DNA of 45,987 nucleotides from the NCBI GenBank assembly GCA_040218145.1, contig JAVJQK010000112.1, positions 1-45,987 of the forward strand, given 5' to 3'. The notes below the pieces were generated by a model that saw nothing but the letters and a program-made list of their open reading frames with translations, did no database searches and was not told the origin of the DNA. Positions 8,413 to 14,640 of this stretch are shown here, piece by piece. How positions within the stretch are numbered: the first letter of the stretch is position 1; the number at the start of each line of letters is the position of its first letter. A program made the position numbers and the translations under genes. This stretch comes from Sandaracinaceae bacterium. GTDB lineage: Bacteria > Myxococcota_A > Polyangia > Polyangiales > Sandaracinaceae.

Positions 8413-8928
8413 ATGCTTCGATTCTTCGCCTCCGCCTGCGCGGCCATGTGGCTGAGCGCCTGTGCGGCGAACACCCCGCCCCCCGACGCCCAGGTCCGCG
8501 ACGCGCCCGACGGTCCACGCCCCGCGCCCCAGGCCAGCCCCTCCTGCGCGGCCGCGTTCCCGGACCCGACGGTCGAGCCGACCGAGTGGATGTCGCCGAT
8601 CACGCACGCCGCGACCGGGGACGTGATGACGAACGGGGCGAGCGCCGAGATCATGCTCGGCGAGGGCGGACGCCGCGTCGTGCCGCTCCGGACGAGCGTC
8701 AACCGGGCCACCTTCTCGTGCTGGCTGATCACGGTCGAGGTGCTCACCGCGGACGGCGCTCGCTTCGAGACCCCGGCTCACCCCGCGCTCAGCGAGGGAG
8801 AGGCCGACCCGCTCGTGTTCCACGTGCGCGTCGGAGACCTGGTGGACGAGCGCGCCACGGTGACGGTGCGGATCCAGGGCAACTCGAGCGAGTACTTCGA
8901 GTGGAGCCGCGAGCTCCGGCTCAGATGA
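8413..8928 (+). CDS. Small lipoprotein, unknown function
   Basis: This is a 171-residue protein beginning MLRFFASACAAMWLSACAAN. The LSAC lipobox predicts signal peptidase II cleavage and a lipidated Cys at residue 17. After an Asp/Pro-rich linker comes a beta-rich domain of about 120 residues with two Cys (SPSCAAAF, FSCWLITV) that may pair. No family was recognised. The start codon follows CAGAATCCCGGC closely, with no Shine-Dalgarno, suggesting a very short leader. The last 8 bases overlap the end of the convergent CNB gene. Confidence 0.75.
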   Translation: MLRFFASACAAMWLSACAANTPPPDAQVRDAPDGPRPAPQASPSCAAAFPDPTVEPTEWMSPITHAATGDVMTNGASAEIMLGEGGRRVVPLRTSVNRATFSCWLITVEVLTADGARFETPAHPALSEGEADPLVFHVRVGDLVDERATVTVRIQGNSSEYFEWSRELRLR

Positions 8929-10246
8929 GGATCAGATCGTCCTCGGTCGTGTTCTCGTCCTCGTAGCCCGAGTCGAGCAGGAGCCGCGTGTCCATCATGC
9001 GCTCCTCGCCGAGGTTGCGGACGTAGTCACCGATCTCCGGCACCGCCTCCTCGAGGCGATGGAAGATCTCCTTCGCCAGGAAGAGCACGGTGCTCTGCTT
9101 CGCCGCCGTGACCGTCGCGCTGGCCGGCTCGTCGTGCACGAGCGAGATCTCGCCGAACACGTCCCCCGGGCCGAGGCTGGCCAGGAGCACCTTCGAGCCC
9201 TGGTCGCGCTTGGACACGTCGACCTCACCGCTCAGCAGCATGAACAGCCCGCGGCCCGTCGCGCCCTCCTCGATGACGTGGACCCCCGCCGCCACGTCGT
9301 GCGCCGTGAAGCGTCGGATGAGGTCGAAGCGCTGGCGCCGGTCGAGCGGCGCGAAGAGCGGCGCGGTGGCGAGCAGGTTGTTGAGCAGCCGCTCCCGGGT
9401 GAACTTGTCCAGCGCCACCGCGACCGTCCCGACGTCGTGGCTGACCGCCGCGAGGGCCTCGCGATCGAACTCCAGCAGATCGCAGTCGGTCGCCGCGGTG
9501 ACGGTCGCGGACCGCGGCGACGCGCTGACCATCGCCATCTCCCCGAAGATGGCGCCGTCGTGCAGGGTCGCGAGCCGGCGGTCGCCGCCCTGGGCGAGGT
9601 GCTTGGTCACCGCGACCTCGCCGCGCGCCAGCACGAAGAAGCTGTGACCCGGCTGACCCTCCGCGACGATCACCTCACCCGGCCGCGTGCGTCGAAGCTT
9701 CATCGCGGCGAGCACCCGCGCGAAGGCGCCCGACGGCAGCTCCGAGAACAGCGGGATGGGCGGGAGCTTCTCCGGGTAGACCTGGCCGGCCTTCGACAGG
9801 TCCGCGCCGAGCTTCTCGCAGTGCGCGACCAGCTGCGCCTGATCGGGGGTCGCGCCGAGCGTGAAGCCCTCCGGCAGCGCTCGCTCGGGATCCCCCGGCG
9901 CCAGCCGGATGCCGCGCCCGAGGCGCTCCGAGTCACGCGAGTAGAGCTCACCCAGGCTGGCGAGGAGCGACTCCAGCAGCGGCTCCAGGGTGGTGAGCAC
10001 CTTGAGCGCCACCAGCGCCCGCAGCGGGTGTCCCCCATGCGCGCAGTGCCGCGCGACCGCGGTGTAGACGACCGCCGCGCGCTGGATCTCGCCGAGGGCC
10101 AGCAACGCGTCCGCGATCCGCAGGCGCGCGTCCAGGTTGATCGGCTCGAGGGTGGTCAGCACCGCGTAGCCGTGCAGCGCCTCGAGGTGCCGCCCCGCGA
10201 GGAGCGCGGCGTCGGCGTGAGCCCGCAGATCCGCGAGGGTGTTCAT
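8921..10246 (-). CDS. TPR plus tandem cyclic-nucleotide-binding-domain protein
   Basis: This is a 441-residue protein. Residues 1-95 look like TPR helices (HLEALHGYAVLTTLEP appears twice in degenerate form). Two CNB domains follow at about 165-280 and 295-410. The first phosphate-binding cassette is FGEMAMVSASPRSATV (234-249) and keeps the Arg (R245) that contacts the cyclic phosphate. The second, FGEISLVHDEPASATV (364-379), has Ala375 instead. This suggests one ligand-binding and one structural or non-binding domain. No DNA-binding HTH or kinase domain is attached, so it may act as a scaffold or regulatory subunit. It is cytoplasmic (no signal peptide). The divergent neighbour starts 145 bp away, and the promoter region is shared. 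Confidence 0.88.
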   Translation of the reverse strand: MNTLADLRAHADAALLAGRHLEALHGYAVLTTLEPINLDARLRIADALLALGEIQRAAVVYTAVARHCAHGGHPLRALVALKVLTTLEPLLESLLASLGELYSRDSERLGRGIRLAPGDPERALPEGFTLGATPDQAQLVAHCEKLGADLSKAGQVYPEKLPPIPLFSELPSGAFARVLAAMKLRRTRPGEVIVAEGQPGHSFFVLARGEVAVTKHLAQGGDRRLATLHDGAIFGEMAMVSASPRSATVTAATDCDLLEFDREALAAVSHDVGTVAVALDKFTRERLLNNLLATAPLFAPLDRRQRFDLIRRFTAHDVAAGVHVIEEGATGRGLFMLLSGEVDVSKRDQGSKVLLASLGPGDVFGEISLVHDEPASATVTAAKQSTVLFLAKEIFHRLEEAVPEIGDYVRNLGEERMMDTRLLLDSGYEDENTTEDDLILI

Positions 10247-11637: not shown

Positions 11638-13488
11638 TTGAAGCGACATCTCTGGATTCTCGGCCTCTTCGCGGCGGCCTTCCTCGTCATGGTGATCTTC
11701 TCCGTGAACGCGCGGACGGACGCCGATCCGACGCCGGCCGGCCTCTCCGGGCAGGTCGATCCACCCACGGGCGCGGTGCTCGTGGACCTCGACGACGACG
11801 CGAGCGCCGAGGCGCACGCAGCGGTCGCCGAGCGGCTGGCCCGCGCGATCGCGCCCTTCGGCTGGCCCTCCGGTGACGCCGCCCTCGGCGCGGAGCTGAA
11901 CGACGAGGCGAACCTCTTCCGCCTCGAGCCGCCCCTGAGCGAGATCGACGACGTCATGCGCGCGCTCGCCGACGACCCGAACGTCGAGGTGGTCGAGGTC
12001 GAGCGGAGCTGGTCCCTCGAGGAGCCGGCCGCGTTCGTCCGGCCGCTCACCGCGCCGGCCCCGGCGCCGGTCGACGACCCGGATCGCTTCGTCCCGAACG
12101 ACCCCTACTACCAGCACCAGTGGCACCTCGATCAGATCGGGATGCCGCGCGCGTGGACGATGTCGCGCGGCGCCGGGGTGGTCGTCGCGGTGATCGACAC
12201 CGGGGTCGCGTACCGCGAGGAGGGCGGCTTCCACCAGGCGCCGGACCTCGGCCAGACCCGCTTCGTCGACGGCTACGACTTCGTGCGGAACGACGCCTTC
12301 CCCGACGACGAGCACGGCCACGGCACGCACGTCGCGGGCACGGTGGCGCAGAGCACGAACAACGGCGTCGGGGTCGCGGGCGTCGCGCCCGAGGCGACCA
12401 TCATGCCGCTCAAGGTGCTCGACCGGAACGGCACGGGCGGGTGGGGCGGCATCGCGGCCGCCATCCGCTACGCGGCCGACAACGGGGCGCACGTGATCAA
12501 CATGTCGCTCGGCGGCGGCAGCCCCTCCCGCGCGGTGCAGCGCGCCATCGACTACGCGCACGGCAAGGGTGTGCTCGTGGTGGCGGCGGCCGGCAACTCG
12601 AGCCGCAGCCGGGTCGAATACCCCGCGCGTCACAACCACGTCGTGGCCGTGGGCGCGGTGCGCTACGACCGCGAGCTGACCTTCTACTCCTGCTACGGCA
12701 CCGGCCTCGACGTCGTCGCGCCCGGCGGCGATCTGCGGGTCGATCAGAACGACGACGGCATGCCCGACGGCGTGCTGCAGAACACGATGGTCCGCGGCGA
12801 CACCGCGCGATTCGACTACCTCGCGTGGCAGGGCACCTCGATGGCCGCGCCCCACGTCGCGGGCGTCGCGGCCCTCGTCTACGCCAACGGGGTCAGCGAC
12901 CCCGACTCGGTCGAGCGCATCCTGAAGCAGAGCGCGACGAACCTCGGCGACGCGCACCGCTACGGCTCGGGCCTGGTGCAGGCGCCGGACGCGCTCGCGA
13001 AGGCGACGCAGCACGGCGGCGCCGCGCGTGGCGCGGTGGCCCTCGGCCTCTCCCTGCTCCTCTTGCTCGGCCTCCGGCGCAAGGACGCGCTCGGTGTGGC
13101 GCCGGTCTCCACGACCGGCTGGGCCGTGGTCAGCGCGGGTGGCCTCGGCGTCCTGCCGTGGGCGCTGGCGGGGCTCGGCGGCTTCGGCGCCATGCTCTCG
13201 CTGGGCGCGCTCGGCTCGGGCGCGTGGTCGCTGGGCGCCTGGGGCACGCTCGCGCTCGCGAGCGCGCTGCCGATCTTCGGCGCAGTGGCGCTGGGCTACC
13301 ACGTGAAGCGGCTGCGCCCGCTCCTGGTCGGGCTCGGGCTCGGCAGCGCGGCGTTCCTGGCCGTCGAGGCCCTCTGGCCGACGCTCCGGTTCGCGCTCTT
13401 GCCCGAGGCGCTCGTGGGGCCCTGGCTGCTCCTGAACGCCCTCGGGGCCCTCGGGCTCGCCGCGGTGGTCGCTCGAAAGGCGCGATAA
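11638..13488 (+). CDS. Membrane-anchored subtilisin-like (S8) serine protease with polytopic C-terminus
   Basis: This is a 616-residue protein starting at TTG, chosen because GGGGAG lies 7 nt upstream and an N-terminal helix follows at once (LWILGLFAAAFLVMVIF). Residues about 45-125 look like an I9-type propeptide. The catalytic triad is visible: Asp187 in VVAVIDTG, His228 in HGHGTHVAG and Ser401 in GTSMAAPHVAG, with oxyanion Asn320 (AAAGNSS). It should cleave proteins on the periplasmic face. Unusually, residues about 460-616 contain around five hydrophobic helices rather than a PPC or sorting domain. A Gly-Gly-Ala then LLLLLGLRRKDA stretch resembles a GlyGly-type anchor at the first of these. 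The downstream hairpin at 13517 may terminate it. Confidence 0.92.
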   Translation: MKRHLWILGLFAAAFLVMVIFSVNARTDADPTPAGLSGQVDPPTGAVLVDLDDDASAEAHAAVAERLARAIAPFGWPSGDAALGAELNDEANLFRLEPPLSEIDDVMRALADDPNVEVVEVERSWSLEEPAAFVRPLTAPAPAPVDDPDRFVPNDPYYQHQWHLDQIGMPRAWTMSRGAGVVVAVIDTGVAYREEGGFHQAPDLGQTRFVDGYDFVRNDAFPDDEHGHGTHVAGTVAQSTNNGVGVAGVAPEATIMPLKVLDRNGTGGWGGIAAAIRYAADNGAHVINMSLGGGSPSRAVQRAIDYAHGKGVLVVAAAGNSSRSRVEYPARHNHVVAVGAVRYDRELTFYSCYGTGLDVVAPGGDLRVDQNDDGMPDGVLQNTMVRGDTARFDYLAWQGTSMAAPHVAGVAALVYANGVSDPDSVERILKQSATNLGDAHRYGSGLVQAPDALAKATQHGGAARGAVALGLSLLLLLGLRRKDALGVAPVSTTGWAVVSAGGLGVLPWALAGLGGFGAMLSLGALGSGAWSLGAWGTLALASALPIFGAVALGYHVKRLRPLLVGLGLGSAAFLAVEALWPTLRFALLPEALVGPWLLLNALGALGLAAVVARKAR

Positions 13489-13516
13489 CCGACCGGAAAA
13501 CCCGGGGTTCCCGTCT

Positions 13517-13546
13517 CGAGGCTCGGCGATCCGTCGCCGGGCCTCG
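13517..13546 (+). terminator. Hairpin after the subtilase gene, terminator-like
   Basis: CGAGGC-T-CGGCGA and TCGCCG-G-GCCTCG pair as a 13-bp stem (one U.G) around a TCCG loop, 28 nt after the stop codon. There is no U-tract, so it may only protect the 3' end or assist Rho. Confidence 0.45.
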
Positions 13547-13562
13547 ACTGCGTTCGGACCCC

Positions 13563-13580
13563 CATGACAGCGATGTCATG
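13563..13580. repeat. Short perfect inverted repeat CATGACA-GCGA-TGTCATG
   Basis: Seven-base arms flank GCGA. It could be an operator or a small hairpin. It lies in the gap between the subtilase and the structured region, with no nearby start codon to explain it as an operator. Confidence 0.4.
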
Positions 13581-13689
13581 GTGCGAAGCCGTCGCCGCGG
13601 CGGTATTCGTGAGGTCCCGCAGACCCGCCCATGGAATCATTGGGCTTTTCGGAAACGAGCGCGATGGCACCGCGATTGCTTCATATCAA

Positions 13690-14030
13690 AACGAAGATAG
13701 CGGCTGAGGCGAACCCCAACCGCTACCATCGCGCTTCACTTGCCAATCAGAGCTTCTTCGCTTAACAGCTTCGTGCTTTCTAGCAGGAGCTTTCGGAGAC
13801 CGGCCGTTTCAACCCCGTCGGGCTCCCCTCCAGCTTCGCTTTCTTTCTTGGGCTGTCCGGTCTCGTCGAGCGCTGCTTCGTGGCGCTCGACCCGACTGGA
13901 ACCGCTTCTTTCTTTCGAGCCTGCTTGCTTCTTCGACTTACTTACTCTTCGACAGCCTGACTTCGTAGAATCTTCCCGGGTTTCCCCGGGTCTTCCGCCC
14001 GGCGAGTGACAGCTCGCCGGGCGTTCCTTT
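13690..14030 (-). ncRNA. Candidate structured noncoding RNA, unknown class
   Basis: This is the heart of the only long gap (13489-14181). Its composition differs from the surroundings: lower GC, and strongly purine-rich on the minus strand. Read on the minus strand it has a 10-bp stem GCCCGGCGAG/CTCGCCGGGC (13997-14022), a CCCGGG stem closed by a GAAA tetraloop (13975-13990), a 9-bp stem GTCGAGCGC/GCGCTCGAC (13865-13891), an adjoining 8-bp long-range helix (13857-13864 with 13796-13803), and a terminator-like stem at 13696-13727. The tetraloops and the G.U pairs in the last stem favour the minus strand. The first stem is followed on the plus strand by GTTCCTTTT and could be a plus-strand terminator instead. 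It lacks RNase P, tmRNA, SRP and 5S signatures. A 101-codon K/E/S-rich frame spans it, but has no ribosome site and is explained by few T residues. The ends are approximate. Confidence 0.5.
13696..13727 (-). terminator. Intrinsic-terminator-like stem with UUCG loop
   Basis: On the minus strand GGTAGCGGTTGGGG-TTCG-CCTCAGCCGCTATC forms a 14-bp stem with three G.U pairs, followed by TTCGTTTTGAT. On the plus strand the same three positions are A.C mismatches, so the orientation is fairly clear. It would end a minus-strand transcript through the structured region. Confidence 0.55.
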
Positions 14031-14181
14031 TCCGTCTTCATCGGTCAACGGCGCCCGCTCCGAAGAGTGAAGCCGCGACTTCCCGATCAGGGTAACGCCG
14101 AGCCTCTCGGGTTGCCATGGGGGAGACGCCCCACCTCCGCCTTACATTCCTCCCACGCGAGCGCTCTGCTACCCTCGCGCC

Positions 14182-14640
14182 ATGCTTCGTATCCTCTCGG
14201 GGTTGATGCTCGCCGTGATGGCCTCCGGCTGCGCCGCGATCAGCGACGACATGCAGCGGGCCGAGGCCACCTACGAGCAGGCGCGCTACGAGGACACGCT
14301 GATCTGGCTGCGTGACCTCGAGGACGACGCGCCGACGATGGATCTCGAGATGCGCGCCCGGTACTACTACCTGCGCGGCATGACCGAGTACCGGCTCGGG
14401 CATCGTCTCGACGCGCTGCACTACCTGGCCGTCGCGCGCGAGGTCGCGGGCGACCAGGGCGCCGGGCTCCGGCCCGAGTGGCGTCAGATCATGGACCGCA
14501 CCCTCACGGAGCTCACGCCGCGCGGCATGAGCCATCGGCCGCCGGAGGCGACGTCGACGGAGGAGGAGACCGCGGGGGGCGAGGCGCCCGTCGAAGAGTC
14601 GGCGGGCCCGGACGAGGCGTCGCCGGTCGAAGAGAGCTGA
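14182..14640 (+). CDS. TPR-containing lipoprotein
   Basis: This is a 152-residue protein. The N-terminus MLRILSGLMLAVMASGCAA has a lipobox (ASGC, Cys17), so it is lipidated. Residues 20-115 form TPR-like helices (AEATYEQARYEDTLIWLRDL, RARYYYLRGMTEYRLGHRLDALHYL). The C-terminal 35 residues are Glu/Pro/Ser-rich and probably disordered. TPR lipoproteins often serve in envelope assembly complexes; none can be named here. TACCCT sits 7 nt before the start, suggesting a leader that is very short if used as a -10 element. Confidence 0.8.
   Translation: MLRILSGLMLAVMASGCAAISDDMQRAEATYEQARYEDTLIWLRDLEDDAPTMDLEMRARYYYLRGMTEYRLGHRLDALHYLAVAREVAGDQGAGLRPEWRQIMDRTLTELTPRGMSHRPPEATSTEEETAGGEAPVEESAGPDEASPVEES

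Follow-up and report, generated by a model that had tools for sequence, protein, structure and literature searches.

A low-GC, pyrimidine-rich gap upstream of a small lipoprotein gene

The window, a 45,987-nucleotide stretch of DNA on contig C112 of an 11.06-Mb genome, contains an intergenic gap (13489-14181) between a subtilase gene that ends at 13488 and a small lipoprotein gene that is itself followed by DUF465 and LolA genes. The TPR match of this lipoprotein is weak and falls below the cut-off. We find that the GC content of the gap is 0.55-0.62, as compared to about 0.70-0.75 in the neighboring sequence, with a strong skew that appears as a pronounced pyrimidine bias on the plus strand; this bears out the description, in the initial annotation, of a composition unlike that of its neighbors. 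A genome search finds a single copy of the gap sequence in its own genome, and a multi-copy or mobile element was rejected on this basis and with neither a phage nor a plasmid match. Of the structure proposed for this gap, the CCCGGG/GAAA hairpin, a GC hairpin (13996-14023) and a long 5′ helix are present, but the coherence of these helices on the minus strand is not upheld. The features discussed below are collected in Table 1.

Table 1. Predicted features of the gap, its syntenic anchor and the candidate activator gene (window coordinates unless a contig or locus is named)
Feature	Position	Strand	Basis or remark
Enhancer (UAS) palindrome CCATGACA-GCGA-TGTCATGG	13562..13581	+	~100 bp upstream of the -24 element
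Sigma-54 -24/-12 promoter TGGCACCGCGATTGC	13665..13679	+	matches TGGCAC-N5-TTGC
Predicted sRNA transcript, 343 nt	13691..14033	+	inferred from promoter and terminator
5′ hairpin UAGCGG...CCGCUA	13698..13725	+	near predicted start
CCCGGG-UUUC-CCCGGG hairpin	13975..13990	+	GAAA loop when read on minus
Intrinsic terminator, 12-bp stem and tail UUCCUUUUCC	13996..14033	+	GC hairpin with U-tail
Small lipoprotein gene (TPR-like)	14182..14640	+	syntenic anchor, outside RNA; lipobox read from sequence
FHA-GAF-AAA+ sigma-54 activator gene	C105:123717-125537 (L123:10718-12538)	minus (as given for L123)	Pfam domains

A conserved sigma-54 promoter and a terminator define a predicted plus-strand transcript

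A minus-strand GCAA-N5-GTGCCA element that seemed conserved is, on the plus strand, TGGCAC-N5-TTGC, a sigma-54 -24/-12 promoter that is near-invariant among orthologous gaps and lies directly upstream of the predicted transcript. The enhancer palindrome farther upstream has the core TGACA-N4-TGTCA (window 13565-13578) and is kept as [T/C]GACA-N4-TGTC[A/G] upstream of orthologous promoters, at a distance of about 70-160 bp. The order of the two elements ahead of the orthologous RNAs is fixed, and their combination is rare: surveys of 183, 377 and 317 genomes that recover the combined pattern return zero matches to a reversed control pattern. In genomes G007 and G008 (loci L019 and L020), the UAS palindromes are in tandem, ~50 bp apart, and the RNA behind them is about 500-550 nt long, with many CUUCG repeats.

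The predicted start lies ~12 nt past the GC of the -12 element and the predicted end is the U-tail of an intrinsic terminator, which together delimit a putative noncoding transcript with a terminator of its own. Since the conserved promoter, the upstream palindrome and the terminator all define the plus strand, we place the transcript there; the earlier proposal of a new regulatory RNA of ~300-350 nt thus stands as to size (~340 nt) and nearly identical coordinates, and is revised as to strand. The exact predicted transcript folds with a z-score of -4.9 against dinucleotide shuffles, none of which equals it. The stretch that forms the 5′ hairpin differs by a single base in the same-species genome G006, and an analogous 5′ hairpin of different sequence is found in G001, G005, G010 and G007/G008; the CCCGGG stem is extended in G001 and G005.

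Whole-RNA MAFFT alignment across genera is unreliable; compensatory changes were read by eye. Three of the first 10 pairs of the terminator stem change in a compensatory manner between G000, G001 and G005, with A-U to G-C, G-C to C-G and G-C to A-U replacements in this family (f1). A helix of family f4 occurs as CUCCGG/CCGGAG, CUCCGA/UCGGAG and CUCUGG/CCAGAG, likewise read by eye. A strict terminator is present at the chosen end in ~17 of the 28 RNAs defined below, the end position being partly picked by eye. In the 5′ domain of the family f4 RNAs (L021, L022, L023, L024 and L057), we observe a hairpin whose loop, UGC(UU)GCCCGGCAU, is nearly invariant and whose closing helix covaries, a possible sub-family signature.

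Orthologous RNAs diverge in sequence and share a repeated motif

A DNA similarity search from the gap reaches only one other genus, and orthologous gaps were located by synteny, with the lipoprotein homolog as the anchor (127 of the 183 genomes of the order). Such gaps occur in many genera, with very different sequences and a similar skew, and share one architecture across genera and families: a UAS palindrome, a sigma-54 promoter, a pyrimidine-rich structured RNA and a GC hairpin with a U-tail. We defined 28 orthologous transcripts, ranging from 137 to 605 nt. Of these, 27 come from genomes of seven families within the order, and a different order supplies the last. Terminator-ended RNAs also follow this UAS and promoter elsewhere in the class, in other orders, where their length falls to about 90 nt.

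The RNA body is fast-evolving, poorly alignable and dense in GCUU(G/A/C) motifs. GCUUG and CGCUU are each found in 23 of the 23 members counted, with 74 occurrences of GCUUG observed against 18 expected, and CUUCG is observed 107 times against 35 expected. We also counted motifs in nine RNAs of other orders that follow the same UAS and promoter, including one that already belongs to the first set: GCUU[AG] occurs 17 times (5.9 expected) and CUUAG 16 times (3.6 expected), these motif forms having been partly chosen after viewing the sequences. Three loci in other orders of the class (L162, L163 and L157) have a shared GAGGUGUUGG/CAGGUGUUGG stretch immediately 5′ of the terminator, behind the same UAS and promoter.

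An FHA-GAF protein is the predicted activator

Within its own genome, the palindrome accompanies only one other exact sigma-54 site, where it matches at 9 of 10 positions. This second site (C105:123577-123591) is the promoter of a lipoprotein gene whose product has no Pfam match, and directly upstream of it is encoded a 607-residue protein with FHA, GAF, sigma-54 AAA+ and HTH_8 domains (Pfam). As the palindrome adjoins this activator gene, we take it to be the predicted site of the FHA-GAF activator, of which the sRNA would be a second target. Of 183 genomes, 165 have a match to the activator at E≤1e-180, almost without exception a single one, and identity across the order is about 60-86%; in 25 of the 27 loci checked the palindrome falls just past the activator stop codon, from which it follows that the sRNA is very probably a target of this activator. 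At the level of genome comparison, the predicted transcription unit recurs with its strand, promoter and terminator, as do the repetition of the motif and the adjacency of UAS and activator gene.

Elsewhere in the class, a UAS/promoter match is followed either by a terminator-ended RNA or by a gene for a lipoprotein or secreted protein. At L096, L100, L101, L103, L161 and L164-L170, hits that come from other families and from further lineages within the phylum, the pair lies upstream of lipoprotein or secreted-protein genes, with the exception of L168, where an RNA follows. A lipoprotein regulon under the same UAS/sigma-54 pair may exist; this link is weakened by the finding that sigma-54 promoters of the window's own genome commonly precede genes for lipoproteins or secreted proteins, in keeping with the idea that sigma-54 governs the cell exterior (PMC3162934). 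Given this high base rate, we set the regulon aside as proof of function.

Relation to known RNA families

The gap RNA has no Rfam match at the gathering threshold (4227 families; the window and 20 relatives), and the window contains no tRNA, tmRNA or rRNA. The earlier observation that RNase P, tmRNA, SRP and 5S signatures are lacking therefore holds for Rfam at the gathering threshold and for the tRNA/tmRNA search of the window, and neither family models nor tRNA/rRNA context assign the RNA to RNase P, tmRNA, 6S, SRP or an rRNA spacer. A remnant of an rRNA spacer, as had been suggested, is not supported, given the single copy, the lack of rRNA and tRNA in the window and a promoter conserved at the orthologous position in many families. 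The best sub-threshold Rfam match, ctRNA_pGA1 (28.9 bits against a gathering threshold of 45), was rejected as reflecting only two GC hairpins and a T-tail.

CsrB and RsmZ are of similar size range and carry many repeated short motifs, with GGA presented in loops; here, in contrast, the repeat is GCUU(G/A/C) and is not loop-enriched. For the pyrimidine-rich plus strand, the enriched k-mers listed include no word with GGA. The CrcZ, CrcY and CrcX RNAs of Pseudomonas, which sequester Crc/Hfq and are activated directly by the NtrC-type CbrB at a sigma-54 promoter (PMC8871633), resemble the gap RNA in pairing an sRNA at a sigma-54 promoter with an NtrC-type activator, as predicted here, but the gap RNA has no sequence or Rfam match to them, carries GCUU-type pyrimidine motifs and is assigned an FHA-GAF activator rather than a CbrB response regulator. 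Pxr of Myxococcus xanthus, a 108-nt RNA with three stem-loops between nla19 and an NADH dehydrogenase gene (PMC5568312), is likewise a myxobacterial sRNA with a predicted sigma-54 promoter, whereas the 343-nt gap RNA lies between a subtilase gene and a lipoprotein/DUF465/LolA cluster and differs from Pxr, as the literature defines it, in locus, size and body. A Qrr RNA of Vibrio is shown to be driven by sigma-54 and an activator (PMC10162802), and GlmY of enterobacteria acts as a decoy for RapZ, a protein (PMC7073468); Qrr and GlmY/GlmZ are, like the predicted RNA, regulatory sRNAs, and are unrelated to it in sequence, host phylum and activators. Judged by its predicted promoter, the gap RNA falls with CrcZ, Qrr, GlmY and Pxr among the sigma-54-dependent sRNAs, and matches no described family at the thresholds used. 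Few myxobacterial sRNAs are understood, Pxr being the main example in the literature searched; to these the present analysis contributes an sRNA family, represented in many families, for which promoter, enhancer and terminator are predicted and a candidate activator is named.

Possible modes of action

Comparison of genomes is the basis for the predicted existence of the sRNA, for its strand and for the regulator proposed above. Our overall reading, to which we assign a probability of roughly three in four, is that the gap holds an independent gene for a regulatory sRNA, read from the plus strand and driven by sigma-54 and its activator. In the proposed sequence of events, the FHA-GAF-AAA+-HTH activator would bind the palindrome and contact sigma-54 RNA polymerase at the -24/-12 element, in response to a phospho-threonine partner recognized via FHA and/or a ligand bound via GAF, giving rise to a transcript of ~343 nt that ends at the terminator. 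The GCUU(G/A/C) repeats would then offer multiple docking sites by which the RNA titrates an RNA-binding protein or purine-rich RNAs. By analogy with CrcZ and CsrB, such a sponge mechanism is put forward tentatively, at somewhat less than even odds; it is weakened by thermodynamic folds in which the GCUU motifs are not preferentially unpaired (0.49 versus 0.56 for other pyrimidines), a result on which a loop-exposed motif was rejected.

The same sRNA gene could instead act by multi-site base pairing, with CUU, CUUCG and CUCC stretches contacting purine-rich translation starts of mRNAs, plausibly those of co-regulated envelope lipoproteins. The pyrimidine-rich sequence with its CUCC-type stretches is consistent with such pairing, as are a lipoprotein gene as the other target of the activator and LolA among the neighbors; the motif, however, is short, and the link to lipoproteins is a weak one in a genome whose sigma-54 promoters generally precede lipoprotein and secreted-protein genes. 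We regard pairing as a realistic possibility that falls short of being probable, and prefer titration only slightly.

Should the repeated motif bind a protein, a global RNA-binding regulator would be implied for this phylum, whose genomes are large and whose sigma-54 activators are numerous. A bolder form of the titration reading, rather unlikely when taken whole, would have a fast-evolving sponge RNA of about 90-600 nt throughout the class, with the repeated GCUU(G/A/C) as its sole conserved content. As the effector of an FHA-GAF activator with control over envelope lipoproteins as well, this RNA would titrate an undescribed myxobacterial RNA-binding regulator.

Alternative readings of the gap

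That the RNA keeps its syntenic place and its orientation ahead of the lipoprotein gene in most relatives would also suit a sigma-54-driven 5′ leader with an attenuator that controls the gene at 14182. This is improbable: ~150 nt of unconserved spacer follow the terminator in the window's own genome, members in other orders carry their own terminators (a statement about terminators, not about the genes downstream), and in G030 the RNA and the lipoprotein gene are ~1.3 kb apart and on opposite strands, which favors a stand-alone gene. As the RNA is mostly on the same strand as the lipoprotein gene and upstream of it, a cis role is possible in some relatives.

A minus-strand noncoding RNA of about 340 nt, the orientation originally proposed from helices thought to be coherent on that strand, is far less probable still. 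Purine-rich linkers and GNRA-like loops are found on the minus strand, and a T-rich tail follows its 3′ hairpin in the window's own genome, but this tail is not conserved and is missing in G005 and in family f4. The two strands fold equally well, with z-scores of -3.8 (minus) and -4.1 (plus) relative to dinucleotide shuffles, none as good, whereas promoter, terminator and cross-genome conservation favor the plus strand; every conserved promoter signal is found there, and a simple terminator finder gives mean scores of 41.9 on plus, 24.4 for shuffles and only 11.4 on minus. With neither a conserved promoter nor a conserved terminator on that strand, we rejected a minus-strand RNA.

A small protein gene has a vanishingly small chance of being correct: open frames of 101 codons (minus) and 89 codons (plus) exist, but an insertion of one base in G006, a genome of the same species, disrupts both, and no convincing homolog is seen in the fetched loci (best E value 0.04), with no Pfam match; neither frame is retained as a gene.

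Elsewhere in the window, the minus strand at 8924-10246 encodes a protein with two cyclic-nucleotide-binding domain matches, and in G062 and G009 visual inspection places a similar gene on the far side of the RNA.
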